From an uncultured Cohaesibacter sp. (GTDB lineage: Bacteria > Pseudomonadota > Alphaproteobacteria > Rhizobiales > Cohaesibacteraceae): 64,000 nucleotides of DNA. Positions 2,649 to 18,660 of the stretch are shown in pieces. Every line of letters starts with the position of its first letter. Within the stretch, counting starts at the first letter, position 1. Location: assembly GCF_963676275.1 (NCBI RefSeq), contig NZ_OY781091.1, forward strand, positions 3,202,775 to 3,266,774. Reading direction: 5' to 3'. Position numbers and translations under genes: made by a program. Below the pieces are notes generated by a model. It was not told the origin of the DNA, made no database searches, and saw only the letters and a program-made list of their open reading frames with translations.

Positions 2649-4394
2649 TTAGTGGGAAATATGCAGAAGATCGGGCAACTGATCATCGCTGAGCTTGCGC
2701 ACATAGGAGAGGAAACTCTCTGCCCCGTCGCGCCGCTCGAGATAATTGCCGATGACCGTCTCGATGGTGCTATCAATGTCGCTGCAAGCGACCGGACCGC
2801 AGAGAGGACGCCCGATGCCCCGGTCATTGTCGCTGCCACCGCCAATCACAACGAAATAGCCCTCCCCGCCATCAGGCAAGGTGGCGCCCACCAGTCCGAT
2901 ATCGCCGATATAATGTTGGGCGCAGCTGTTCGGGCATCCGGTCAGGTGAATATTGATGGGTTGATCGAGAGTGAAGCGACCTTCCAGATGGCGCACAAGC
3001 CGCGTTCCATCCTGTTTGGTCGATGCAAGGCCAAATTTGCAGCCCCATTTGCCGGTACAGGCAACGGCACCTGCTGCGAATGACGTGGCCCGCGTGGCAA
3101 GGTCGGCCTCTTCCAGCAATGAGGTTGCCTCGGCAATATCGGCAGTTGCGATATGCGGAATGATAAGATTTTGCCACACCGTCAGCCGCACGTCATTCTG
3201 CCCCTTGTCCATGGCCAACTGGCCGATAAGGCGCATTTGCTCCGGCGACAGTCGGCCCATCTCGAGAGCCAGCCCGACATAGTTGAGCGCCTTATCCTTC
3301 TGCGGATGGATACCGATATGCCCCTGCCGCAAGATCGGCGCGCGGGGAGCATCCGTGCTGCTCGCAAGCCGGATGAAGGAAAAGTCGGCCTCGAATTCCG
3401 CCAGTTTGGCCTCGGTCATTTCCATGAACCAATCCAGCCCCTTGGCATCGAGCAGATATTTGAGGCGCGCCTTCTTGCGGTTGGTCCTGTCGGCATGTTC
3501 CACGAAGACATGCAACATGGCCGCACCCGCCATGACCGTTTGCTCCGGAGTGCAGATCAAGCCAGTATCCCGCGCCAGATCCTTATGGCCGGAAATGCCA
3601 CCAAGCAGGATCCGACAATAGATCCCCGGCGCAACACCTGCATCATTCTCGCCAATCCTGACCGCCTGAAATGAAATGTCGTTGCTGTCGCTGACGCAGG
3701 AAATTTGCCCTCCACCATCAAAGGAAATGTTGAATTTACGTGGCAGCCCCTGCAATTCCCTTGTGTTGAGAACGAGATTGGAGAGGCGGATGGTATAGGG
3801 AGAAAGGTCAATCAGTTCCACCGGATCGAAACCCGCGGTCGGTGCTGCCGTCATGTTGCGAGCCGAGTCTGCCCCTGTGCCATGGCAGGAAAGCCCGACC
3901 GAATGCAGCTTGTCCATGATGGTCAGAACATCCTTTGGCTGAATTTCACGCATCTGGATGTTGCCCCGCGTCGTGACATGGGCATAGCCGCCTGCATGCT
4001 GCTCGGCAATTTCAGCCAGCATCTGCATCTGGTCTCCGCGCAGCTTGCAGGCGGGAAGTCGCATGCGGAGCATGTAGGCCGGACTGTTCGGCTCGACATT
4101 GAAGAAGCCCCAGTGGCGAAGCAGAAACTGGTCCAGTCCCGTTGCCAATTCATTGCGGTCCGTCCAGCGTTCCAGCTTCATGCGAAGATCAAGGGGATGA
4201 AGCTGATATTTGGCCAGCTCTTCCTTGCACAGATCATCAACCGGCGTGCCATAAACCATCTCGGCCTTGGCTTCGCTGTTGCCGTTTCCGCTGCCGGAAA
4301 AAGCCTCATGCAGATTGAGCTGGGCCATGGCGTCGACAAGATAGGACAGTTGCTCGGGGCTGAAGCCTTTTTTCTTTTCTACCGGGGCATGCAT
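2649..4394 (-). CDS. nirA: NirA-type siroheme nitrite (or sulfite) reductase
   Basis: 581 residues with the duplicated ferrodoxin-like/siroheme architecture of nitrite/sulfite reductases. The four cysteines binding the 4Fe-4S cluster and bridging to siroheme are visible as ACTGKWGC (C446, C452) and TGCPNSC (C487, C491). Siroheme-contact basic motifs such as HVTTRGNIQ occur in the N-terminal half. The family reduces nitrite to ammonium or sulfite to sulfide with six electrons. Neighbours (nitrite channel, nitrate reductase, nitrate transporter, diflavin reductase) argue for nitrite. The start ATG 4394 has GGAG 13 nt upstream. The pairing with a CysJ-like flavoprotein rather than ferredoxin is the notable point. 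Confidence 0.92.
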   Translation of the reverse strand: MHAPVEKKKGFSPEQLSYLVDAMAQLNLHEAFSGSGNGNSEAKAEMVYGTPVDDLCKEELAKYQLHPLDLRMKLERWTDRNELATGLDQFLLRHWGFFNVEPNSPAYMLRMRLPACKLRGDQMQMLAEIAEQHAGGYAHVTTRGNIQMREIQPKDVLTIMDKLHSVGLSCHGTGADSARNMTAAPTAGFDPVELIDLSPYTIRLSNLVLNTRELQGLPRKFNISFDGGGQISCVSDSNDISFQAVRIGENDAGVAPGIYCRILLGGISGHKDLARDTGLICTPEQTVMAGAAMLHVFVEHADRTNRKKARLKYLLDAKGLDWFMEMTEAKLAEFEADFSFIRLASSTDAPRAPILRQGHIGIHPQKDKALNYVGLALEMGRLSPEQMRLIGQLAMDKGQNDVRLTVWQNLIIPHIATADIAEATSLLEEADLATRATSFAAGAVACTGKWGCKFGLASTKQDGTRLVRHLEGRFTLDQPINIHLTGCPNSCAQHYIGDIGLVGATLPDGGEGYFVVIGGGSDNDRGIGRPLCGPVACSDIDSTIETVIGNYLERRDGAESFLSYVRKLSDDQLPDLLHISH

Positions 4395-4438: not shown

Positions 4439-4882
4439 TTACCAGGCGTTATACTGGAGATACTTGCCGCTCATTTCGACCTTGACCCTGTCGCCCTTGG
4501 GATTGGGCACACGGGTCACGCTCATGTCGAAATCGATCGCCGACATGATGCCGTCACCGAATTCTTCATGGATCAGGGCCTTCAGCGTCGGCCCATAGAC
4601 ACCGACAATCTCATAGAAACGATAGATGCATGGATCGGTTGGAACCGTCTGCTCCCAACTCTTGGTCGGGCTCTCGGCCAGAATGTCGGCGCTTTCAGCC
4701 GGCAAGCCCAGCAAAGCCACCAGCTCATTGGCCTTTGCCAGCGGAAAGGCATTCATGCCCACACATGCCGAATGGGTGAATACCGGTGACATGCCAATTT
4801 TTGCGGCAATATCGGCCCAACTATATCCTTGCTTCTTTTTTGCTTCCAGAATGAGGATGGTCAAATCGTCTTTCGTCATCAT
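4439..4882 (-). CDS. cynS: Cyanase (cyanate hydratase)
   Basis: 147 residues, close to the family's ~156. An N-terminal helix-turn-helix-like region (GYSWADIAAKIGMSPVF) precedes the cyanase catalytic domain (CIYRFYEIVGVYGPTLKALI, with the conserved Arg and Glu; then FGDGIMSAIDF). It converts cyanate plus bicarbonate to carbamate and CO2, and carbamate decays to ammonia and CO2. ATG 4882 is chosen because AAAGGA lies 8 nt upstream; an in-frame TTG six bases earlier is too close to it. The gene sits mid-operon between the PP2C-kinase and nirA with gaps of ~43 bp, so cyanate use is co-expressed with nitrite reduction. Confidence 0.95.
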   Translation of the reverse strand: MMTKDDLTILILEAKKKQGYSWADIAAKIGMSPVFTHSACVGMNAFPLAKANELVALLGLPAESADILAESPTKSWEQTVPTDPCIYRFYEIVGVYGPTLKALIHEEFGDGIMSAIDFDMSVTRVPNPKGDRVKVEMSGKYLQYNAW

Positions 4883-4925
4883 GGTCAAACTCCTTTAGAG
4901 CAATAAGGTTCGGTCATTGGATCGG

Positions 4926-6692
4926 TTACAAGAGATCGGCCAGCGCCAACCCCTGCACCAGACAAAGGAAGGCCAGAAATCCCGCGAGGATGCGCCAGAC
5001 TTCAATCGGAGCACGATCAAACAGCGGCTTTTTGCGGGCTGGCCGGAAATGAATATTCGGCTTGCGAAGCGCGCTCGTGAATTCTGAAAGCGCGTCAAAT
5101 CTGCGGGCAGAAGACGGATGAACCGCCCGCATCAGGGCGTCATCAATCCAGTCGGGAATGATCCGCCTGCTGCTCACGGCTCGCAGATAGCGCAGCTTTT
5201 TGCGATCAGACGGCTTGCGCATCCGGGAGACTTGCACGCCATAGGGCAGCGCATCGGTGAAAAGCTCATAGGCGATGACCCCGAGGGAGAAGAGATCAGA
5301 GCGCCAGTTGATGGCTTCCCCGGTGTAATATTCGGGGGCCGTATATTGGGCAGTGCCCAGAATTTCGGCATCAGCCCCCAGAGGGCCTGCCTCCTGCACG
5401 CCGGACACATAGGCTGAGCCGAAATCGATGATGGTGACATGCAGATCCGGGCTGACGATGATATTCTCCGGCCGCAAATCCTGATGCAGCATTTCAAGGC
5501 GATGAAAGGCCCTGAGCCCCTTGACGATCTGTTCCAGAATGGTTCGGATCTGCTCAAGATTGCGATCCGGATTGTCATGCATCCATTGGCGCAGGGTCTG
5601 CCCCTCGACAAAGTCGGTAACCAGATAAAGGCCGGAGCGCTTTGGCTGGATTTTCGGAGCCGAGAGAAGATGCTGATTGGAATGGCGCCGCGCGATCCAC
5701 TCCTCGATCATGAAGCGCTGCAAGGCGGCCTCGTCATGCAACAGCGCACTGGCGGGAATTTTCACGCAAACCTTGCGCCCATCCGCCTGACGCCCAACGA
5801 AGATTTCCGAGCGGTGATTGGCATGTAGCTGCCGAAGAATGGTGATATTGTCGATATCAGCACCGGCTGTCAGGCTGATTGCCAGAGGAGCCAGAGCTTC
5901 ATCCGGCGCGAAATCATACCCAACCGGCTCAATCGACTGATTGATCCTGACGATTTGCAAGGTCAGATTGTCGTCGCTTCCATTGCCGAGGGCCATCTCG
6001 AGAATCTTTGCGGCCAGCGCGTCAAGATCCGCCTCGGCATCGGCTTGTGCAAGCAGCGCCTGAACCTCTTTCTCATTCCAGAAATCATGCAAGCCATCGG
6101 TGGTAAGCAGGAAGATGTCGCCCTTTGCAATGCGTTCCTGCCGATAGTCGATCTCGACCGCAGCTTCAATGCCCAGAGCACGGGACAGCACGGTCTGGCC
6201 ATCGCCGATGGTAACGCGATGCAGCCGGCTCAGAGCTTCAAGGCTGCCATTGGAAAGGCGCCATATGCAGCTGTCACCGACGTTGAAAATATGCGCCCGT
6301 GGCCCCTTGAGAAGCAGAACCGCAAGCGTTGAGACATACCCCTTGTCGGGATCATAGATGCCCTTGAAACTGGACTGCGCATGAAGCCAGCTGTTGGTTG
6401 CGTTGGCAACCCGCGAGACAGCCGTCTTGGCCGTCCAGGCTTGAGGGGTTGCGTAATAGTCCGCCAGAAGGGATCGGATTGCTGTCTGTGCGGCGCTTCC
6501 GCCATAGGCAGAGCTTGAAATGCCATCGGCCACGGCGAGCAGCACTCCCTTTGCAGTGCCGCTCATCCCCTCCGGCATCATGGCTCCGTGGAAGTCATCA
6601 TTCCGTTCCTTACGGCCGCACAGCGTCGCCTGACCAAGAGAGATCAGGTCATCACATCTGTTTGGCATATGATCCGGGTTCACAGACAGCAT
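4926..6692 (-). CDS. Bifunctional PP2C phosphatase - Ser/Thr protein kinase with C-terminal membrane anchor
   Basis: 588 residues. The N-terminal half is a PP2C-type phosphatase with metal-binding aspartate motifs (ERNDDF, VADGISSS, FNVGDSC, TTDGLHDF, GSDDNLTL). The C-terminal half is a Hanks-type kinase: VCVKIP supplies the ATP lysine, HQDLRPEN has catalytic D405, IDFGSA has metal-binding D423, and an APEYY motif follows. The last ~22 residues (WRILAGFLAFLCLVQGLALADLL) form one membrane segment, so both domains face the cytoplasm. ATG 6692 follows an AAGG ribosome site; an ORF start at 6758 is possible but overlaps leader-like sequence. Second gene of the nitrite/cyanate operon. Related kinases occur beside nitrite reductase genes in Pseudomonas. 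The substrate is unknown; the transporter or NirA are candidates. Confidence 0.9.
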   Translation of the reverse strand: MLSVNPDHMPNRCDDLISLGQATLCGRKERNDDFHGAMMPEGMSGTAKGVLLAVADGISSSAYGGSAAQTAIRSLLADYYATPQAWTAKTAVSRVANATNSWLHAQSSFKGIYDPDKGYVSTLAVLLLKGPRAHIFNVGDSCIWRLSNGSLEALSRLHRVTIGDGQTVLSRALGIEAAVEIDYRQERIAKGDIFLLTTDGLHDFWNEKEVQALLAQADAEADLDALAAKILEMALGNGSDDNLTLQIVRINQSIEPVGYDFAPDEALAPLAISLTAGADIDNITILRQLHANHRSEIFVGRQADGRKVCVKIPASALLHDEAALQRFMIEEWIARRHSNQHLLSAPKIQPKRSGLYLVTDFVEGQTLRQWMHDNPDRNLEQIRTILEQIVKGLRAFHRLEMLHQDLRPENIIVSPDLHVTIIDFGSAYVSGVQEAGPLGADAEILGTAQYTAPEYYTGEAINWRSDLFSLGVIAYELFTDALPYGVQVSRMRKPSDRKKLRYLRAVSSRRIIPDWIDDALMRAVHPSSARRFDALSEFTSALRKPNIHFRPARKKPLFDRAPIEVWRILAGFLAFLCLVQGLALADLL

Positions 6693-6774
6693 TTGTAAAA
6701 ACCTTGCTTGGTTTCTCTGCAAGGGATCAGGGCATCCAGTGACACCCTGATCCCGCACCTTGAGAGCACACTGC

Positions 6775-7611
6775 TTATTCGGCAGGCTCGGCGATTGTGG
6801 TCACCGGACGACGGGACGGAGAGGTTTTGAAATGCGTCGCATAGATCATGCCGCCAACGAAGGTGAGGCCGCCCACCAGATTGCCAAGGATCACCGGCAA
6901 TTCGTTATAGGCCAGATAGTCAAACCAGGTGAATTGACCACCCAGCATGATGCCTGACGGGAACAGGAACATGTTGACGATGGAATGCTCGAAACCGAGA
7001 TAGAAGAAGACCAGAATGGGCATCCACATGGCCATGATCTTGCCGGACACGGAGCTGGACATCATCGCGGCAACAACACCGGTGGACACCATCCAGTTGC
7101 ACATGACGGCGCGGATGAACACGGTCAACATGCCTGCACCACCGGCGGCCGCATATCCCAGCGTGCGCGCCTCACCGATCTTGCCGATCCTCTGGCCAAC
7201 ATCGTTCGGCTCCTGCGAAAAGCCCATGGTGAAGATGATTGCCATGAAGACGGCCGTTGTCATGGCTCCGGCAAAATTGCCAATGAAGACCAGCCCCCAG
7301 TTCCGAAGCACCCCACCCCAGGTGACGCCGGAGCGCTTGGCAAGCAGGGCAAGGGGAGCAAGTGTGAATACACCTGTCAGAAGATCAAACCCGAGCAGAT
7401 AGAGCATGCAGAAGCCGACCGGGAACAAAAGGGAAGCAACGAGGAAATTGCCGGTATTGACGGCAATCGTGACAGCAAAAGCCGCCGCAAGCGCCAGAAT
7501 GGCCCCTGCCATATAGGCACGGATCAGGGTGTCCTTGGTGGACATGAAGACTTTGGCCTCACCAGCCTCGATCATCTGGGCGGCAAATTCTGATGGTTTC
7601 ACATAAGCCAT
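6775..7611 (-). CDS. Formate/nitrite transporter (FNT) family channel, NirC-like
   Basis: 278 residues with six predicted membrane segments and FNT signatures: KPSEFAAQMIEAGEAK at the N-terminus, the GNFLVASLLFPVGFCML region, NWGLVFIGNFAGA, and CNWMVSTG followed by GFEHSIVNMF. FNT proteins form pentameric inner-membrane channels for formate, nitrite or similar monovalent anions. As first gene of the operon containing nirA and adjacent to nitrate reductase genes, nitrite is the likely cargo. ATG 7611 is preceded by GGAG 7 nt upstream. Expression is predicted from the sigma-54 promoter at 7839-7855 through an RNA leader. Confidence 0.92.
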   Translation of the reverse strand: MAYVKPSEFAAQMIEAGEAKVFMSTKDTLIRAYMAGAILALAAAFAVTIAVNTGNFLVASLLFPVGFCMLYLLGFDLLTGVFTLAPLALLAKRSGVTWGGVLRNWGLVFIGNFAGAMTTAVFMAIIFTMGFSQEPNDVGQRIGKIGEARTLGYAAAGGAGMLTVFIRAVMCNWMVSTGVVAAMMSSSVSGKIMAMWMPILVFFYLGFEHSIVNMFLFPSGIMLGGQFTWFDYLAYNELPVILGNLVGGLTFVGGMIYATHFKTSPSRRPVTTIAEPAE

Positions 7612-7713
7612 TGAAAACTCCTGTCAAATTCAAGTCACACATAATGCGCGACTGGGTTTGGCATAAAATTTTCCGGGTATGACCACTGTCAGGCTTGAAA
7701 AGGGCGCAAGGTG

Positions 7714-7772
7714 ACAAGAAAGCTACCACACAAGGCATGTCTTGCCCTGAAGAGGAAACACCTGGATAGCTT
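7714..7772 (-). terminator. Candidate leader terminator upstream of the nirC-like gene
   Basis: On the minus strand, AAGCTAtCCA (plus 7763-7772) can pair with TGGTAGCTT (plus 7720-7728): nine pairs with one bulged T. The stem is followed by TTTCTTGT. It lies about 60 nt downstream of the predicted transcript start and ~100 nt before the gene, where NasT-controlled leaders carry an attenuator. The T-run is imperfect, so this is tentative. Confidence 0.4.
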
Positions 7773-7788
7773 CATTGCCATATATACC

Positions 7789-7824
7789 GTCCGCCGTTGG
7801 ACGCAGTTTGCAGTCAATCTGCAA
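7789..7824 (-). promoter_or_regulatory. Candidate ANTAR-binding two-hairpin RNA in the nirC-operon leader
   Basis: Read on the minus strand, the transcript from the sigma-54 promoter begins with P1 TTGCAG-ATTGA-CTGCAA (plus 7808-7824). After a 5-nt linker comes P2 GTCC-AACGGC-GGAC (plus 7789-7802). P2 has the hexaloop with A at position 1 and G at position 4 that defines ANTAR targets. P1 has A1 and G4 but only five loop bases as folded here. NasT, encoded next door at 8070, is an ANTAR protein. P1 begins at predicted +5, exactly as in the nrtA leader. Confidence 0.6.
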
Positions 7825-7838
7825 CTTGAATTTACCAA

Positions 7839-7855
7839 AGCAAATGCCGTGCCAG
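7839..7855 (-). promoter_or_regulatory. Sigma-54 (-24/-12) promoter for the nirC-stk-cynS-nirA operon
   Basis: The minus strand reads CTGGCACGGCATTTGCT, a full match to the sigma-54 consensus YTGGCACGRNNNTTGCW with GG and GC at the required spacing. It lies 228 bp upstream of the first gene. Sigma-54 promoters of nitrogen genes are normally activated by NtrC; I did not find a convincing NtrC enhancer in 7856-8069. Confidence 0.85.
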
Positions 7856-8069: not shown

Positions 8070-8690
8070 ATGATTTGCTCCATGTGCCACATTAAAGGCA
8101 TGCAGCAATCGGACTTGAAAATTCTCGTCGCAGATGAAAACCGCTCTCGTGCTTCCATTATCAAATTGGGGCTCATTGAGAACGGCTATTCCAATGTCGA
8201 GATCATAACCAGTTTTTCAGGCTTCGCCGCGCTCGTCGAGGCGGTTCAACCAGATGTCATCGTCGTCGATCTGGAGAATCCACAGCGCGATACTCTGGAA
8301 GCCTTCTTTGCGCTGTCGCGATCGATCAAGCGCCCCATTGCCATGTTTGTTGACCAGTCCGATCTGACATCCATGCAGGAAGCCATTGATGCGGGCGTGT
8401 CCGCCTATGTGGTGGATGGTCTGAAAAAGGACCGTGTGCGCCCCATCATGGAAATGGCGATTGCCCGTTTTCGTGCCTATTCGAAGATGGAAGATGAACT
8501 CAAGGAAGCCAGATCCCAACTGAAGGATCGCGACATTCTGGGAAAAGCCAAGCAGATCCTCATCAATCATAAGGGCTTGACGGAAGACGAGGCCTACAGG
8601 CAAATTCGCACGACTGCCATGAACAAGCAAAAGAAAATGTCCGACGTTGCGCATAGCATTGTACTCGCCGCAGAAGCGATGGACTTGTAG
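8070..8690 (+). CDS. nasT: NasT, ANTAR-domain nitrate antiterminator
   Basis: 206 residues from ATG 8070. An N-terminal response-regulator-like domain (LKILVADENRSRASIIKLGL; VDLEN at the phosphoacceptor region) is followed by a C-terminal ANTAR RNA-binding domain at roughly 145-200 (LKDRDILGKAKQILIN, then GLTEDEAYRQIR). In the known NasS/NasT systems NasT binds tandem hairpins in leader RNA and prevents termination. Without nitrate it is sequestered by NasS. nasS follows 13 bp later, and candidate target hairpins flank the pair on both sides. No ribosome site is clear for 8070; ATG 8100, giving MQQSDLKILV, is an equally good start by homology. Confidence 0.9.
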   Translation: MICSMCHIKGMQQSDLKILVADENRSRASIIKLGLIENGYSNVEIITSFSGFAALVEAVQPDVIVVDLENPQRDTLEAFFALSRSIKRPIAMFVDQSDLTSMQEAIDAGVSAYVVDGLKKDRVRPIMEMAIARFRAYSKMEDELKEARSQLKDRDILGKAKQILINHKGLTEDEAYRQIRTTAMNKQKKMSDVAHSIVLAAEAMDL

Positions 8691-8703
8691 GAGCCGGAAC
8701 GCC

Positions 8704-9933
8704 ATGACCAACTCTCTTTTCCCCATACAGGCCGGCTTCATTCCTCTTAATGATGCTGCCATTCTGATCATTGCCAGAGAATGCGGCTTTGCCCAAGAGG
8801 AAGGCATCGATCTGCAACTGCAAAAGGAAACAAGCTGGGCCACCCTGCGCGACAAGCTAGCAATCGGGCTATTCGACGTTGCCCATATTCTTGCGTCCAT
8901 TCCTGTCGCTGCCAGTTGCAATCTCTTTCCCTTGCCGCTTGATGTCGTGGTTCCCATGTCGCTCGGGTTGGGCGGCAATATGATTACCCTGTCACGCGCC
9001 ATCTGGGAGCGCCATCTGGGCCCTGCGGAAACTGGCGATTTCAGCGCCAGGCAGGCGGGTGAGAATGTCTCCAGCATCATCAAGATCAGACAACAGCTCG
9101 GGCTGGCCAAACTGAAATTCGGCGCGGTCCACCCCTTCTCCTCCCATAATTATGAATTGCGCTACTGGCTTGCCGGATGTGGCATCGACCCCGAAGCGGC
9201 TGTCGATATCGTGTTTCTGCCACCGTCAACCATGCCCGATGCGCTCAGATCCGGCGCAATTGACGGCTACTGCGTCGGCGAACCATGGAACAGCAGCGCC
9301 ATTCTCGATGGAGAAGGATTGCTGCTGACCACCAAATCCCATATCTGGCAATCAAGCCCGGAAAAAGTGCTGGCCGTTCGCACAAATTTCGCCAAAGAAC
9401 AGCAGCAGGCCCATTTCGCGTTGCTAAGAGCGCTCTATAAAGCGGCCCTCTGGATAGAGGATGCTGACAATCTGACTGCGCTTTGCGACATCCTGTCCGC
9501 GAATGACTATCTTGGAAAGCCCGGAGACTATCTGGCCGCCGGGTTCAGCGGGGAAATTCGAACCGGCTACAGCAAGACACCGACCATACATATTCCTGAC
9601 TTCTATCTCTCGGCCTCACGCGCGGCACTCTATCCATGGAACAGCCACGCCCTCTGGTTCTATAGCCAGATGGTTCGCTGGGGCCATGCCCCTTGCAGCG
9701 ACGCGCTGATCGCCAAAGTACGCAAGACCTTCAGCCCCGCCCTTCTCAAGCAGGCACTGACGCCTCTGGGCATCTCTCTGCCTGTGGCCGAAGAAAAACC
9801 TGAAGGCTCTTTCAGCCATGCAATCGCATTGCCGGGCACGGCAGGAGAGATCACATTCGGACCGGACCAGTTTTTCGAGGGCCGGATTTTCGATCCAGAC
9901 GACATTACCGGCTATCTGGCGAAGCAAAAATGA
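8704..9933 (+). CDS. nasS: NasS, cytoplasmic nitrate sensor (NrtA-like)
   Basis: 409 residues resembling the nitrate-binding protein NrtA but without a signal peptide. It shares the motifs [27 protein letters not shown] and LWFYSQMVRWG with NrtA encoded just downstream. The start ATG 8704 has TAGGAG about 10 nt upstream; an earlier in-frame ATG at 8647 lies inside nasT. Lack of a leader and coupling to nasT match NasS proteins, which hold NasT inactive and release it when nitrate or nitrite binds. Confidence 0.9.
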   Translation: MTNSLFPIQAGFIPLNDAAILIIARECGFAQEEGIDLQLQKETSWATLRDKLAIGLFDVAHILASIPVAASCNLFPLPLDVVVPMSLGLGGNMITLSRAIWERHLGPAETGDFSARQAGENVSSIIKIRQQLGLAKLKFGAVHPFSSHNYELRYWLAGCGIDPEAAVDIVFLPPSTMPDALRSGAIDGYCVGEPWNSSAILDGEGLLLTTKSHIWQSSPEKVLAVRTNFAKEQQQAHFALLRALYKAALWIEDADNLTALCDILSANDYLGKPGDYLAAGFSGEIRTGYSKTPTIHIPDFYLSASRAALYPWNSHALWFYSQMVRWGHAPCSDALIAKVRKTFSPALLKQALTPLGISLPVAEEKPEGSFSHAIALPGTAGEITFGPDQFFEGRIFDPDDITGYLAKQK

Positions 9934-10065: not shown

Positions 10066-10082
10066 TTGGCACACCGCTTGCA
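10066..10082 (+). promoter_or_regulatory. Sigma-54 (-24/-12) promoter for the nrt-nas operon
   Basis: TTGGCACACCGCTTGCA matches the sigma-54 consensus TGGCAC-N5-TTGCA. The predicted start is ~10093, giving a ~145-nt leader before nrtA. It is the second such promoter bordering the nasTS pair. Confidence 0.82.
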
Positions 10083-10096
10083 ATGCAATAGGCGAG

Positions 10097-10129
10097 TGCT
10101 GCAGTGGAGCAGCAGGCCCAACGAAGGGC
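10097..10129 (+). promoter_or_regulatory. ANTAR-binding two-hairpin RNA motif in the nrtA leader
   Basis: P1 is TGCTGC-AGTGGA-GCAGCA (10097-10114) and P2 is GCCC-AACGAA-GGGC (10116-10129), one nucleotide apart. Both loops are hexanucleotides with A at position 1 and G at position 4, the published signature of ANTAR-protein RNA targets. They begin at predicted +5 of the sigma-54 transcript and precede a terminator. NasT is the obvious ligand. Confidence 0.8.
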
Positions 10130-10146
10130 AGATATAAAAGGCAACG

Positions 10147-10207
10147 AAGCCATATCGGATTGAATGATATCCCCCTCGGATGCATTCACGACGATATGGC
10201 TTTTTTT
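10147..10207 (+). terminator. Attenuator (Rho-independent terminator) in the nrtA leader
   Basis: An 11-bp stem AAGCCATATCG (10147-10157) / CGATATGGCTT (10192-10202) contains an inner TGAATG / CATTCA stem. It merges into seven Ts (10201-10207), 30 nt before the nrtA start codon. This is a strong intrinsic terminator inside the leader, so transcription of the nrt-nas genes needs antitermination, presumably by NasT. Confidence 0.85.
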
Positions 10208-12832: not shown

Positions 12833-14605
12833 ATGACTATTCTGGAAATCTCTAATCTGTCCAAGCATTATGGCGAAGGCTCCCATCGCAATGATGTCCT
12901 GACCGATGTCAACCTGAAGGTCGAAGAAGGGGAATTCATCGCCATTGTCGGCTTTTCCGGCTCTGGCAAGACCACTCTCATTTCATTGCTTGCCGGCCTT
13001 ATCGAGCCGGAAATCGGCGGCGTCATCTTCAAGGGCAAGGAAATCGACGGCCCCAGCCCCGAGCGCGGACTGGTGTTTCAATCCTATTCCCTGATGCCCT
13101 GGCTTTCGGTGCAAGGCAATATCGCCCTGGCCGTTGACAGTGTTCACAAGAGCAAATCCAGAGAAGAGCGTGCCGCGCTGGTGGCGCACTATATCGAAAT
13201 GGTCGGGCTCAGCCATGCGAAAGACCGCAATCCCTCCGAGCTGTCCGGTGGCATGCGCCAGCGCGTCGCCGTGGCCCGGGCGCTGGCCATGCAGCCCGAA
13301 CTGTTGCTCATGGACGAACCACTCTCTGCGCTTGATGCCCTGACCCGCGCCAAATTGCAGGACGAGTTTGCAGCCATTTCACAAGAAGAGAAGAAAACCA
13401 TCATTCTCATCACCAACGATGTTGATGAGGCCATTCTTCTTGCCGACCGGATCATTCCCCTAACTCCGGGCCCGAACGCAACACTGGGCAAGGAATTCAA
13501 GGTCGACCTGCCCCGCCCGCGCGATCGTGGCGCCATGAATCATGACGATGATTTCATTGCCTTGCGGGCCGCTGTTACGGAATATCTGATGTCGATCAGC
13601 GCCCAGAAAGCAGCTGAACAGCAGGAAGCTGACATTACCCTGCCCAATCTTATACCGATTGAAAAAGCCAGACGCAGCAAGAACAGACCGCTTCCAGCGG
13701 CCTATAGCGACACGGCCCGGTCGGATCGGGAGCAAGGCTATCTCGACTTCAGCCAGTTGACCAAGATCTACCCCACACCAAAGGGCCCACTGACAGTCGT
13801 CGACGGCTTTGACCTGAAGGTCAACAAGGGCGAATTCATCACCCTTATCGGTCATTCCGGCTGCGGCAAATCGACTGTGCTCTCCATGGCCGCCGGTCTC
13901 AACCCGATTTCGGCTGGCGGCATCATTCTTGATGGCAAGCATATCCAGAGTGCAGGCCCGGACAAGGCCGTGGTCTTTCAGGCCCCTTCCCTGATGCCTT
14001 GGATGACGGCACGAGAGAATGTCATGCTCGGTGTCGATGAAGTCTACCCCAAGGCCAGCAAGGCAGAACGGGCGGATATTGTCGATTACTATCTTTCCAG
14101 AGTAGGCCTTGGCGATAGCCTCGACAGGCTCGCATCTGACCTCTCCAATGGCATGAAGCAGCGTGTCGGCATCGCCCGCGCCTTTGCCCTTTCGCCCAAG
14201 CTTCTGCTGCTCGATGAACCCTTCGGGATGCTGGACAGCCTCACCCGCTGGGAATTGCAGGACGTTCTGATGGAAGTCTGGGATCGCACCAACGTCACCA
14301 CCATCTGCGTCACCCATGATGTTGATGAAGCCATCCTGCTGGCAGACCGTGTGGTGATGATGTCCAATGGTCCCCGGGCTCGCATTGGCAACATCATGAA
14401 GGTCGATCTGCCGCGCCCGCGCTCGCGCAAGGAACTGCTCGCCCATCCCGACTATTATGCCTATCGCGAGGAATTGCTCGACTTCCTAGAAGCCTATGAA
14501 GGGGGCGCGGATCCGAGCGACGAGCAACTGAAATCCATTCAGCAGAAACGCGCCATGCGCCTTGCCCGTCAGCGCGGCGGCCAGAACAATTGTGCCGCCG
14601 AGTGA
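12833..14605 (+). CDS. Nitrate ABC transporter, two ATPase domains fused (NrtC-NrtD type)
   Basis: 590 residues containing two complete NrtD-like ATP-binding domains. Domain 1: Walker A GFSGSGKTT (40-48), signature LSGGM (137-141), Walker B LLLMDEP (157-163). Domain 2: Walker A GHSGCGKST (340-348), signature LSNGM (437-441), LLLLDEP, and switch histidine H495 in THDVDEA. In domain 1 the switch histidine is replaced by asparagine (N195 in TNDVDEA), so one of the two composite ATP sites is probably impaired. The fusion gives a fixed asymmetric ATPase pair for the NrtB dimer. ATG 12833 is used; the frame extends back to 12755 inside nrtB. Confidence 0.92.
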   Translation: MTILEISNLSKHYGEGSHRNDVLTDVNLKVEEGEFIAIVGFSGSGKTTLISLLAGLIEPEIGGVIFKGKEIDGPSPERGLVFQSYSLMPWLSVQGNIALAVDSVHKSKSREERAALVAHYIEMVGLSHAKDRNPSELSGGMRQRVAVARALAMQPELLLMDEPLSALDALTRAKLQDEFAAISQEEKKTIILITNDVDEAILLADRIIPLTPGPNATLGKEFKVDLPRPRDRGAMNHDDDFIALRAAVTEYLMSISAQKAAEQQEADITLPNLIPIEKARRSKNRPLPAAYSDTARSDREQGYLDFSQLTKIYPTPKGPLTVVDGFDLKVNKGEFITLIGHSGCGKSTVLSMAAGLNPISAGGIILDGKHIQSAGPDKAVVFQAPSLMPWMTARENVMLGVDEVYPKASKAERADIVDYYLSRVGLGDSLDRLASDLSNGMKQRVGIARAFALSPKLLLLDEPFGMLDSLTRWELQDVLMEVWDRTNVTTICVTHDVDEAILLADRVVMMSNGPRARIGNIMKVDLPRPRSRKELLAHPDYYAYREELLDFLEAYEGGADPSDEQLKSIQQKRAMRLARQRGGQNNCAAE

Positions 14606-14610
14606 AAGAG

Positions 14611-15945
14611 ATGAAAAAGAAGCTCGTTATCATTGGCAATGGAATGGCTCCGGGGCGCATGCTTGAGCATATACTCGCGATGGCCCCCGACGCTTTCGAA
14701 GTGACCATCTTCAACGCCGAACCTCGCGTCAATTACAATCGCCTGATGCTGTCTCCGGTCCTGTCGGGCGAAAAGACCTATCAGGACATCATCACCCATG
14801 GCGATGACTGGTATGATGCGCGGGGCATCACTCTGCACAAGAATGCGAAAGTGACAGAGATTGATCGCGAGGCAAGGATTGTCCGATCCGTCAATGGCAT
14901 CGAAGCGGCTTATGATCAGTTGGTCATAGCCACCGGCTCAACGCCCTTTATCATTCCCCTGCCCGGCCATGATCTGGACGGGGTTCTGACCTATCGCGAC
15001 CTTGATGATGTGGAATGCATGCTCAAGGTGGCCAGGGACGGTGGCCGCGCCGTGGTTATCGGTGGTGGCTTGCTCGGTCTGGAAGCAGCCGCCGGACTGA
15101 AAAAGCAAGGCATGGAGGTCACCGTCCTTCATCTCATGCCAACGCTCATGGAACGCCAGCTGGACCCGGCTGCTGGATATCTGCTGGAGCAGGCCTTTCA
15201 GGCTCGCGGCATCGAAATACGCACCCAGGCCAATAGCCGGGAAATCATCGGCAAGGATGGCAAGGTGATCGGTATCAGACTTGAGGATGGCACCGAGATC
15301 GATGCCTGCATCATCGTCATGGCAGTCGGAATACGGCCGTCCATCGCGCTGGCCAGACAGGCGGGGCTGGATGTCAATCGCGGCATTCTGGTTGATGATG
15401 CCATGTGCACATCCGATCCGGACATCTTCTCTCTTGGCGAATGCGTCGAGCATCGGGGCCAATGCTACGGGCTCGTTGCACCGCTTTATGAAATGGGTGC
15501 CGTGCTCGCTGACAATCTGCTGGGCAGGCACGCGCTTTACCATGGCTCGGTAACGGCAACCAAACTCAAGGTGACCGGCATTGATCTTTACTCTGCGGGA
15601 GATTTTGCCCCGGCGGACGACCGCGAGGACATCATCCTGCGCGATGGCAGCAAAGGCGTCTACAAGCGGCTGGTGCTGAAGGATAACAGGATTGTTGGTG
15701 CCGTACTCTATGGAGACACCACTGACGGCCCTTGGTTCTTCGAACTGCTGAAACAAGGCATTGATATTTCGCCACTCCGCGACACCCTCATTTTCGGGCA
15801 GGCCTATCAGGGCGAAGAATTTTTGCCCCCTGAAAAACAGGCATCAGTGCCAGAGAGAGAAGCCTCTGGCAGGAACGGTGCTCCCCAATCCGGAATGCAC
15901 GAAAAGACCGGAACCAGAATGTTGAAACGGGTCGCATTTCGATAA
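14611..15945 (+). CDS. NirB-N-like FAD/NAD(P)H oxidoreductase (NasB/NasC-type electron donor)
   Basis: 444 residues equivalent to the N-terminal half of NADH nitrite reductase NirB and to NasB/NasC donors. The FAD motif is KKLVIIGNGMAPGRMLEHIL, NYNRLMLSPVL binds the flavin region, and the second Rossmann motif is VVIGGGLLGLEAAAGL. FSLGECVEHRG is the C-terminal FAD contact and TKLKVTGIDLYSAG follows. It lacks the BFD iron-sulfur and siroheme domains of full NirB. Placed 5 bp after the transporter and 39 bp before nasA, it most likely feeds NAD(P)H electrons to NasA. The C-terminal ~35 residues are low-complexity and unconserved. Confidence 0.88.
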   Translation: MKKKLVIIGNGMAPGRMLEHILAMAPDAFEVTIFNAEPRVNYNRLMLSPVLSGEKTYQDIITHGDDWYDARGITLHKNAKVTEIDREARIVRSVNGIEAAYDQLVIATGSTPFIIPLPGHDLDGVLTYRDLDDVECMLKVARDGGRAVVIGGGLLGLEAAAGLKKQGMEVTVLHLMPTLMERQLDPAAGYLLEQAFQARGIEIRTQANSREIIGKDGKVIGIRLEDGTEIDACIIVMAVGIRPSIALARQAGLDVNRGILVDDAMCTSDPDIFSLGECVEHRGQCYGLVAPLYEMGAVLADNLLGRHALYHGSVTATKLKVTGIDLYSAGDFAPADDREDIILRDGSKGVYKRLVLKDNRIVGAVLYGDTTDGPWFFELLKQGIDISPLRDTLIFGQAYQGEEFLPPEKQASVPEREASGRNGAPQSGMHEKTGTRMLKRVAFR

Positions 15946-15984
15946 TTTTCGCAATAACCGCAATGACTTGCAAAGAGGGACAGG

Positions 15985-18660
15985 ATGACTGACATGGAAA
16001 ATGTGACCCGTACCACATGTCCCTATTGCGGGGTCGGGTGCGGCGTCCTGATAGAGAAGCTCACGGATGGATCCGTAAGGGTCAAGGGCGATCCTGACCA
16101 TCCGGCCAATTACGGTCGCTTATGCTCCAAGGGCACAGCCCTTGCCGATACCATCGGTCTGGAAGACCGCCTGCTCTATCCGCAAATCAACGGCAAACGC
16201 GCCAGCTGGGATGAGGCACTCGATAGCATTGCCAGCCGCTTCAGGCAGATCATCGCCGAAGATGGCCCGGACGCCATCGCTTTTTATGTCTCCGGCCAAA
16301 TTCTGACCGAAGACTATTATGCCGCCAACAAACTGATGAAGGGAGCAATCGGCTCCGCCAATATCGACACCAATTCGCGCCTTTGCATGGCCTCTTCGGT
16401 TGCCGGCCACAAACGGGCTTTCGGGGCGGATACGGTTCCGGGCTGTTATGAAGATCTCGAGCTTGCAGACCTGATCATTCTGACCGGCACCAATCTGGCT
16501 TGGTGCCATCCGGTTCTTTATCAGCGCATTGTGCAAGCCAGAAAAGGCAATCCGGATCTGAAGGTCATATTGATCGATCCGCGCCGCACGATGACCGCCG
16601 ACATTGCCGACCTGCATCTGCCAATCAGCCCGGACGGTGACATTGCGCTATTTCTCGGGCTTCTGGCCGAGATCAGCAAATCGGGCTGTTACAATGGCGA
16701 CTATGTGGAGGCATATACCTGCGGCATGCAAGACGCCGTATCAGAAGCAAACGCACTCTCATGGGACGAAATCCAGTCGCAAACAGGGCTATCTTCGCAA
16801 GAATTGCGGCGCTTCTACGATCTTTTCATCAACAGCGAGAAGACCGTCACGGTCTATAGTCAGGGCGTCAACCAGTCGCGCGTCGGATCGAACAAGGTCA
16901 ATGCCATCATCAATTGCCATCTGGCAACCGGGCGCATCGGCCGCCCCGGCATGGGCCCCTTCTCTGTCACCGGGCAACCAAACGCGATGGGAGGCCGCGA
17001 GGTCGGCGGCCTTGCCAACATGCTGGCTTGCCACATGGACATTGAAAATGAGGCCCATCGCCAGATCGTCGGTGATTTCTGGCAGAGCGAGGCCTTGCCA
17101 ACGAAGCCGGGACTGAAGGCGATAGACCTGTTTCAGGCGGTCGCTGATGGCAAGATCAAGGCGCTCTGGATCATGTCAACCAACCCGGTGGTCTCGATGC
17201 CAGACGCAAATGCGGTGCGGGCGGCCATCCAGTCCTGCCCTCTCGTGATCGTTTCCGACGTGCAGGCCCACACGGACACCCTCGATCTTGCGCATATCAA
17301 GCTACCCGCCGCTGCCTGGGGCGAGAAGGACGGAACCGTAACCAACTCCGAACGCTGCATTTCGCGCCAGCGGGCATTTCTGCCCGCTCCGGGAGAAGCC
17401 AGAGCCGACTGGTGGCATATGGCCGAAGTTGGACGCAGAATGGGGCTTGAGGCGCAGTTTGATTGGCAAAATCCTGCTGATATCTTCCGTGAATATGCCG
17501 CCCTGAGCGCCGAACACAACGATGGCACGCGCGATTTTGATATTGGCGCATGGCAAGACAGAGACGATGAAGCCTACGCCTCCATGGAGCCATTCCAGTG
17601 GCCGGCAAGAGCTGGCGATGTGCCCTCTCACACCAATCAGCGCTTCTTTGCCACTGGCGGCTTCTTTACCCCCGGCCGCAAGGCCCGCGCCATAGCCGTT
17701 ACCACCGATGGAGTGTCTCAGGCGCAATCCACCTCTCCAGACCATGCCTTCATCCTCAACACGGGCCGCGTGCGCGATCATTGGCACACCATGACCCGCA
17801 CGGCTCGCAGTGCGCGCCTGTCGGCTCATTTGTCTGAGCCCTATTGCGAAATCCATATTGATGACGCCAAACGACTCGAAATCGGCGACAACGATCTGGT
17901 TTGGATCGAAAATGGGCTCGGGCGCGTAACCGTGCGCGCCATGATTTCGGACCGGATCAAATCCGGCCATCTGTTTGTCCCCATGCATTGGACCGATCAA
18001 TATAGCGCCAATGCCCGCATTGACCAGTTGGTACCATCCGTCAAGGACCCGGTTTCCGGCCAACCGGCTTCAAAATCGGCGCATGTGCGGATTTCCCGCG
18101 CCCGGATCGGTAGCTACGGTTTTGCTGTTCTGCGCGACAAACCGCAAGCGCTCTCCCTGCCCTATTGGACGCTGGCACGCTCCAAAGATGGCTGGCGTCT
18201 GGAGTTTGCCCTTGAAGAAGCCCCTGCGGCAGCAACGCCCGAAAGCATCAAGGCCGCGCTTGCCATTGACTGCGCAAATGAACCGCTCGCCTTTTTCGAC
18301 CTTGGCAAACATCGCTGCCGTATGGCGTGGTTTGATGGCGACAAGCTCGTGGCGTCGGTTTTTCTGGCAAGCGAGCCGCTCACCCTTTCCCGAGAATTTG
18401 TCTCCAGCCAGCTGGGTGGCATCTGGTCGGGCATTGCCCAGAGGGCTCAGGTCATCGCCGGAGTTCCCGGAAAGGAAACGCCGGACAAGGGCAAGATCAT
18501 TTGCGCCTGCATGAATGTCGGGCTTCATGAAATCGCAGCCGCCAAATCCAAAGGATGCTGCTCGGTAGATGCCATCGGCAAGGCCACCGGTGCGGGAACC
18601 AATTGTGGTTCCTGCAAACCCGAAATAGCGGAGATACTTCATGACGTTGCTGCAGAGTGA
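15985..18660 (+). CDS. nasA: Assimilatory nitrate reductase, catalytic subunit
   Basis: 891 residues. The N-terminal 4Fe-4S site (CPYCGVGC, later LCSKG) is followed by the Mo-bis-MGD molybdopterin oxidoreductase domains (NSRLCMASSV, TGRIGRPGMGP, NTGRVRDHWHTMTRT). A C-terminal BFD-like [2Fe-2S] domain (ICACMNVG then GTNCGSC) ends the protein. This matches cytoplasmic NasA, which reduces nitrate to nitrite using electrons from a flavoprotein such as the gene before it. GAGGGACAGG precedes ATG 15985. The last 20 bases overlap the start of the CysG-like gene, implying translational coupling. Confidence 0.95.
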   Translation: MTDMENVTRTTCPYCGVGCGVLIEKLTDGSVRVKGDPDHPANYGRLCSKGTALADTIGLEDRLLYPQINGKRASWDEALDSIASRFRQIIAEDGPDAIAFYVSGQILTEDYYAANKLMKGAIGSANIDTNSRLCMASSVAGHKRAFGADTVPGCYEDLELADLIILTGTNLAWCHPVLYQRIVQARKGNPDLKVILIDPRRTMTADIADLHLPISPDGDIALFLGLLAEISKSGCYNGDYVEAYTCGMQDAVSEANALSWDEIQSQTGLSSQELRRFYDLFINSEKTVTVYSQGVNQSRVGSNKVNAIINCHLATGRIGRPGMGPFSVTGQPNAMGGREVGGLANMLACHMDIENEAHRQIVGDFWQSEALPTKPGLKAIDLFQAVADGKIKALWIMSTNPVVSMPDANAVRAAIQSCPLVIVSDVQAHTDTLDLAHIKLPAAAWGEKDGTVTNSERCISRQRAFLPAPGEARADWWHMAEVGRRMGLEAQFDWQNPADIFREYAALSAEHNDGTRDFDIGAWQDRDDEAYASMEPFQWPARAGDVPSHTNQRFFATGGFFTPGRKARAIAVTTDGVSQAQSTSPDHAFILNTGRVRDHWHTMTRTARSARLSAHLSEPYCEIHIDDAKRLEIGDNDLVWIENGLGRVTVRAMISDRIKSGHLFVPMHWTDQYSANARIDQLVPSVKDPVSGQPASKSAHVRISRARIGSYGFAVLRDKPQALSLPYWTLARSKDGWRLEFALEEAPAAATPESIKAALAIDCANEPLAFFDLGKHRCRMAWFDGDKLVASVFLASEPLTLSREFVSSQLGGIWSGIAQRAQVIAGVPGKETPDKGKIICACMNVGLHEIAAAKSKGCCSVDAIGKATGAGTNCGSCKPEIAEILHDVAAE

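Follow-up and report, generated by a model that had tools for sequence, protein, structure and literature searches.

A probable second NasT target in the leader of an FNT-kinase-cyanase-NirA operon of Cohaesibacter

Background

ANTAR targets, as described by Ramesh et al. 2012 (PMC3369931), consist of two hairpins whose hexaloops carry A at position 1 and G at position 4 (A1/G4), and AGCAANGRRGCUY, an element of 13 nt, forms the 5′ side of terminators. The natural linkers of E. faecalis eut are given there as 5-12 nt, while linkers of 3 or 14 nt led to drastic losses and the 3-nt linker drastically lowered induction (PMC3369931). Other reports add that selection with NasR yielded a C:G closing pair (PMC7496416) and that an ANTAR dimer is thought to take a single loop at a time (PMC8934654). 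For NasT, earlier work describes more than one leader per genome in Bradyrhizobium, on nirA, coxS, narK and bjgb (PMC6759348), and a proposal of nitrate-dependent control at translation in Paracoccus (PMC5424462).

The leader of a formate/nitrite transporter (FNT) operon of an uncultured Cohaesibacter sp. can be placed against three described groups. Like the dual-hexaloop targets of EutV (eut), NasR (nasF) and AmiR (amiE) (PMC3369931), it has two A1/G4 hexaloop hairpins with C:G closure, a linker of 6-8 nt, a second hairpin in a GCAANGRRGCU context and a 3′ arm shared with a downstream stem; unlike them it has an extra hairpin at the 5′ end, no conserved U tract, and a nearly invariant block able to pair with the Shine-Dalgarno (SD) sequence. 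With the nitrate-operon NasT leaders of Paracoccus nasA (PMC3795266, PMC5424462) and Bradyrhizobium (PMC6759348) it shares nearby NasS-NasT genes and the presence of leader hairpins, there called HI/HII or the 'NasT-interaction hairpin', but the target here is a separate FNT-kinase-cyanase-NirA operon. The RNAs EutX and Rli55 likewise carry hexaloop hairpins, EutX being said to have an additional single hexaloop; they bind and sequester an ANTAR protein (PMC8934654), whereas for the leaders described below binding is predicted and the accumulation of a terminated RNA that sequesters NasT would be conjecture.

Results and discussion

Gene content, promoters and transcription starts

The window, the whole stretch of 64,000 nucleotides that was analysed, contains a leftward operon that begins with FNT (6775-7611, minus strand; PF01226, 1.1e-61) and continues with a PP2C phosphatase/protein kinase fusion (4926-6758; PF13672 and PF00069), the cyanase CynS (4439-4888; TIGR00673 above its cut-off), a NirA family nitrite reductase (2649-4394; NF007126 above its cut-off) and a CysJ-like flavoprotein reductase (857-2845, the ORF as listed with its start unrefined; TIGR01931 below its cut-off). 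On the plus strand follow NasT, with a receiver and an ANTAR domain (8070-8690; PF03861, 1.3e-16), and a NasS-like nitrate sensor (8647-9933; PF13379) named by its neighbourhood. At E ≤ 0.001 the genome has a single match to PF03861, NasT, which is encoded next to the FNT operon. Further along the same strand the region 14590-18660 encodes a NirB-like FAD protein covering positions 1-401 of the NirB model and then a nitrate reductase, the C terminus of which matches NirB positions 413-468.

The FNT operon is preceded by TGGCACGGCATTTGCT (7839-7854, minus strand), an exact match to the sigma-54 consensus as the initial annotation had proposed and the sole exact match in the window. The 5.03 Mb genome contains six such matches, against none for a reversed-pattern control. 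The first ORFs downstream of the other five, with products assigned by eye from translations, are nitrogenase-cofactor-like, HesB-like, flagellar P-ring-like, DctP-like and YggT-like. All five FNT leaders of the genus have a sigma-54-like site at the same place. With the usual sigma-54 spacing, which we take to apply here, the predicted +1 of the FNT operon is 7828 (minus strand). The nitrate operon has a sigma-54 promoter with one mismatch (10067-10082, plus strand) and a predicted +1 of 10093, and in both leaders the first hairpin begins at +5, in agreement with what had been noted earlier. The predicted FNT RNA thus opens with CAAG TTGCAG[ATTGA]CTGCAA ACTG CGTCC[AACGGC]GGACG GTATAT ATGGC[AATGAA]GCTAT, loops in brackets. 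Rfam models at the gathering threshold returned only a tRNA in the window and a loose threshold returned nothing credible in the leader.

Three hairpins at the start of the FNT transcript

Of the three hairpins in this RNA we call the first P0 and the other two P1 and P2, since the middle and third hairpins match the published ANTAR features and the first does not. P0, TTGCAG[ATTGA]CTGCAA (7808-7824, minus strand), is the hairpin with a 6-bp stem and five-base loop that had been described as P1 of a NasT pair, and it is present as described. P1, CGTCC[AACGGC]GGACG (7788-7803), had been correctly recognised as a hairpin with an A1/G4 loop but labelled P2; it is the canonical P1. The true P2, ATGGC[AATGAA]GCTAT (7766-7781), had been overlooked. 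The stems CGTCC/GGACG and ATGGC/GCTAT both exceed the 3 bp required of such hairpins; both loops have A1 and G4, both stems close with C:G, and the linker between them is 6 nt, or 8 nt if P2 is counted as 3 bp. Of the 13 positions of the eut element, P2 matches 11. The core of the leader aligns with that of the nitrate leader in the window through P1, linker and P2. Here a strict tandem pair is found no more than 63 nt from the start of the perfect promoter; the chance rate, from nine strict tandem pairs on the two strands of one Markov resample (971,649 bases each), is about 0.0005 per 100 nt of strand.

P0 lies outside the ANTAR pair because its five-base loop, its G:C closing pair and the 4 nt that separate it from P1 all misfit. 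The initial annotation had taken the pentaloop and AACGGC hairpins as the NasT pair, with the pentaloop as a variant ANTAR target. The ATTGA loop does have A at position 1 and G at position 4, and its counterpart at +5 in the nas leader has a true hexaloop; the loop is not conserved, however, reading ATTGA, CGAGGT or TGTGT in relatives with a different hairpin in one of them, and a better-conserved pair lies downstream. Together with the G:C closure and the 4-nt linker this leaves that reading with hardly any credence. By sequence comparison the P0 pentaloop hairpin is not one of the ANTAR pair, being an extra 5′-end hairpin whose loop is free to change, and the predicted working pair is different from the one first named.

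Conservation and covariation

We searched 61 genomes, 18 of them from the genus (its own included), and found a close FNT orthologue in five, all in the genus, with identities of 93-100 %. Their leaders (G000, G012, G001, G016 and G008) comprise four distinct cores, that of G012 being nearly identical to that of G000. All five retain the promoter as well as P1 and P2 with A1, G4 and C:G closure; G008 has a C-G to U-A change in P1 and the P2 loop AATGTT. The P0 stem is kept in four. The stem TTGCAG/CTGCAA has the loop ATTGA in G000 and G012, CGAGGT in G001 and TGTGT in G016, and G008 has AGGTTT[ATT]GAACCT at this place.

Among nine leaders of the genus (eight distinct) the covariation score of P1 and P2 was 0.469 against 0.247 for shuffled alignments, and among 28 order-level nas leaders (27 distinct) it was 0.370 against 0.176, with none of 500 shuffles as high in either case. 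These counts lean on the nas leaders because P1 is invariant among the FNT leaders except in G008.

The arms of P0 are identical in three species (12 of 12 columns) while its loop is almost wholly changed (1 of 6 columns), as would be expected if TTGCAG-N5/6-CTGCAA were a palindromic DNA operator where transcription starts and not an RNA hairpin. There are four such sites in the genome against none for the reversed pattern, but the other three fall within long ORFs (reading frames, not checked genes), the spacer varies between 5 and 6, and G008 and other families have different stems at a similar distance from +1. We consider a DNA operator quite improbable.

The leader could also be vestigial, a descendant of the nas type that has lost its regulation, and its weak U tail and the P0 loop that is not ANTAR-like would fit such a history. 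Against this, the stretch from P1 through the linker to P2 hardly varies among three species (37 of 38 columns identical) compared with the segment between P2 and the conserved block (37 of 106 columns, gap columns counted as not identical), which makes loss of function very improbable. A NasT target that uses the canonical two-hexaloop motif of P1 and P2 remains the reading we favour.

A stem competing with P2

Downstream of P1 a terminator-like bulged stem (7714-7778, minus strand; -21.8 kcal/mol) has the 3′ arm of P2 in common with that hairpin and is followed by a weak T-rich tail, TTTCTTGT, most of which is taken into the stem in the best fold. The 3′ arm of P2 pairs with the downstream arm in the FNT leaders (GCUAUCC with GG-UAGC), and in a consensus fold of the five leaders eight such pairs hold in 92.5 % of cells and one of them has changed on both sides (helix 3). 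The tail has a T-to-G change in the nearest relative, G012, and no U tract follows the stem in G001, G016 or G008, leaders for which single folds give different best stems. The bulged stem with a T-rich tail reported in the initial annotation therefore stood in part: the core of the stem is mostly kept but the tail is not conserved. As judged from these alignments, the stem predicted to compete with P2 is real and a conserved intrinsic terminator is not.

The nas leader of the window, with P1 GCCC[AACGAA]GGGC (10116-10129, plus strand) and P2 GGC[AACGAA]GCC (10140-10151), has a predicted intrinsic terminator with a U tract (10146-10207, plus strand; -29.7 kcal/mol) that again has the 3′ arm of P2 in common. 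In the five nas leaders of the genus the terminators fold at -28 to -33 kcal/mol, 5-8 of the 9 bases that follow are U, and the 5′ arm of the terminator includes the 3′ arm of P2; the folds predict ordinary antitermination for these leaders. The excess of C over G in the best window of 78 nt, calculated with Rho in mind, was 8-11 in four FNT leaders, 19 in the G008 FNT leader and -5 to 12 in the nas leaders.

A conserved block and the Shine-Dalgarno region

Ahead of the FNT ribosome-binding site lies a conserved block, CCGGAAAATTTTATGCC..., which in the predicted folds pairs with the SD region GGAGTTTTC, a further stem lying between them (7612-7676, minus strand). The block has 29 of 31 columns identical in three species, against 37 of 106 in the segment that precedes it. 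In the same stretch, which holds the block sequence CCGGAAAATTTTATGCCAAACCCAGTCGCG (AAAATTTT), a run of U stands opposite GGAG. In the predicted SD-masking helix GAAAAUUUU pairs with GGAGUUUUC, and fold z-scores range from -2.84 to -0.70. The outer helix (helix 7) is invariant and covariation neither supports nor contradicts it; the inner stem (helix 8) has three pairs with both-side changes. G008 is without the block, yet its SD is also predicted to be paired.

These features would suit a leader that acts mainly on translation, with the block masking the SD, NasT-held P2 shifting the balance, and no intrinsic terminator. The near-identity of the block and the both-side changes in its inner stem fit such a model, as do the lack of a conserved U tract, a P2 element able to pair with the block (predicted duplex probability 0.03-0.09) and a mean unpaired probability of the SD in full-leader folds that is lower in five FNT leaders (0.06-0.27) than in three nas leaders (0.21-0.62). 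However, forcing P1 and P2 in four FNT leaders did not free the SD (0.18 to 0.20, 0.14 to 0.14, 0.14 to 0.17 and 0.09 to 0.00), the block:SD duplex has a probability of 0.01-0.16 in four leaders against 0.59 in G008, and the retention of most of the stem that competes with P2 speaks for control of elongation. We regard action mainly on translation as improbable though not far-fetched, and on these folding models translation control of the FNT operon is a lead, not a result.

The same forcing of P1 and P2 in 14 Rhodobacterales leaders, hand-picked for a recognisable SD from 29 loci, changed SD accessibility by at most 0.03 in eight, by +0.07 in one, by +0.20 to +0.26 in four and by -0.07 in one. 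A general thermodynamic NasT translation switch is not supported, as eight of these 14 leaders barely change and the four FNT leaders rise by at most 0.03 or fall.

A hairpin close to the predicted transcription start

The position of P0 was examined in 26 leaders, comprising four FNT and five nas leaders from the genus plus 17 from the order, all with a sigma-54 site in range; G012, a near duplicate of G000, was omitted, and L172 has a doubtful promoter. In 22 of the 26 sigma-54/NasT leaders a hairpin with 4 bp or more begins at +2 to +6, against 6.7 expected from Markov resampling, and in 16 one with 5 bp or more, against 2.4, counts in which related sequences are not independent, though the stems differ between lineages. 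The same rule applied at +7 to +11 gave 15 leaders at 4 bp and 3 at 5 bp out of the 26, many of those at 4 bp probably being inner parts of the same stems. At the other five perfect sigma-54 sites of the genome the rule held at two, both with 4 bp, which is too few to tell whether the feature is particular to NasT leaders. Folding energies averaged -6.5 kcal/mol against a null of -5.3 kcal/mol, and were -4 kcal/mol or lower in 21 of the 26 leaders against 51 % of the null, but the resampled stretch in both comparisons took in the GC-rich P1, which makes the energies a poor test.

In the nas leader of the window the hairpin at +5, TGCTGC[AGTGGA]GCAGCA (10097-10114, plus strand), itself has an ANTAR-type hexaloop, giving three hexaloops there and two in the FNT leader. 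In 8 of the 26 leaders the first hairpin has an A1/G4 hexaloop closed by C:G; in one of these, L174, it is P1 itself, and the other seven are three-hexaloop nas leaders (G000, G001, G015, G016, L168, L169 and L208). The middle loop of the G001 nas leader is GATGAC, with G at position 1, and the P0 loop of the G008 nas leader is GGCGAT. A hexaloop P0 was found in none of the four FNT leaders in the set. No three-hairpin ANTAR leader was found described in the literature searched, though one may exist in print, and the accessible portions of the NasT/ANTAR papers examined hold no description of the +2 to +6 hairpin or of three-hexaloop nas leaders; these are parts that a specialist might not expect. 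The position of the FNT hairpin at +5 is probably set by the transcription start, with a role in 5′-end protection or folding.

A more elaborate scheme can be drawn from these parts. The third, start-anchored hairpin of sigma-54/NasT leaders would have become a third NasT hexaloop in several lineages; terminated nas RNA, capped by the P0 hairpin and the terminator with the loops of P0 and P1 exposed, would act as a stable NasT decoy feeding back on free NasT; and the FNT leader, without a P0 hexaloop and U tract, would be read at translation through the block pairing with P2 or with the SD. We offer this as a long shot.

Covariance-model scans and wider loci

A covariance model built with the leaders of the window among its sequences (R2) scored them at 49.8 and 44.5 bits, with no other match in the genome exceeding 21.4 bits among the 150 of 1366 first-look candidates scored, a ranking that is circular for those two leaders. 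Over 60 order loci R2 gave 49 matches at E ≤ 1, 28 of these with E < 0.01. A second model, R3, contains 28 order-level leaders and none from the genus, its rows (A4) having been picked from the 49 R2 matches by E < 0.01, so that it is genus-free yet selected by a model that saw genus sequences. R3 gave the FNT leader of the window a weak 19.1 bits (E 0.11 over 198 kb) and the nitrate leader 16.0 bits. In its genome search, with 150 of the 5658 first-look candidates scored, the FNT leader came fourth (E 2.9) and the nitrate leader was absent from the matches at E up to 10. R3 did better elsewhere in the genus, at 39.5, 30.2, 29.0 and 25.8 bits for four nas leaders and 24.1 bits for the G008 FNT leader. 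By itself the R3 scan does not prove membership among ANTAR targets. Two weak model matches, in L218 and L241, were set aside as coding sequence in appearance, judged by eye. A Devosia cluster (L023) has two strong matches to both models, at 3019-3054 and 9225-9262, one before a nirB-like gene and the other before a nitrate reductase gene.

NasT was found in 84 of 199 genomes of the order, 81 of them outside the genus, and the 60 best-scoring of these provided the order loci. A NasS match is present in 59 of the 60, and a strict P1-P2 pair lies within 700 nt behind NasS in 28 of these 59 and is absent in 31. In 80 named FNT loci the PP2C-kinase fusion directly follows FNT in 63 and is then followed by cyanase in 43. 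The 80 loci as a whole hold 55 strict pairs anywhere against nine in the Markov resample, and a strict pair lies within 500 nt before FNT or an operon-leading nirB-like gene in 34, mostly of Rhodobacterales; 29 of the 80 were retained by the motif filter, some loci being excluded by hand. Many of the 34 leaders have their hexaloops about 30 nt apart, several with a variable-loop spacer hairpin between.

Rhodobacterales leaders such as L030:2950-3165 and L044:5630-5850 have two hexaloops about 30 nt apart, a free-loop spacer hairpin and no evident U tract, and several NasT-type leaders of this order have a long-range complement (GCGGCAATTTCCGTCA / TGACAGAAATCGCCGC in L030). In six loci with FNT first (L012, L018, L044, L050, L058 and L062) the leader retains, by eye, a CCGGAG...ATG like the start of a nirB-like gene, as though nirB once stood between the two and has since been lost.

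Conclusions

The proposal of the initial annotation that a second NasT leader serves the FNT, PP2C-kinase, cyanase and NirA operon is very probable, given a single ANTAR protein, NasT, encoded next door and a core that aligns with the nitrate leader. The FNT leader is probably a second target of NasT, of a class already known but with a variant layout, and we think it likely, from the sequence comparisons, that it acts through the canonical two-hexaloop motif of P1 and P2 and that its operon is co-expressed with the nitrate operon. NtrC and sigma-54 would start the transcript under nitrogen limitation; nitrate or nitrite would free NasT from NasS; NasT would bind P1, then P2, and hold P2, so that the 3′ arm of P2 would be barred from the downstream stem; and the FNT-kinase-cyanase-NirA operon would then be expressed together with the nitrate operon. 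We infer the read-out step in the FNT leader, because the stem competing with P2 is mostly kept and the U tail is not.

If this is true, a nitrite channel, a kinase, a cyanase and a nitrite reductase would join nitrate reductase in one nitrate-controlled RNA circuit, and the corrected assignment of the hairpins that NasT should read allows binding tests to be aimed. More generally, the comparison raises the questions of why a hairpin should stand within a few bases of the 5′ end in NasT leaders, and what role a third hexaloop may have if an ANTAR dimer takes one loop at a time.
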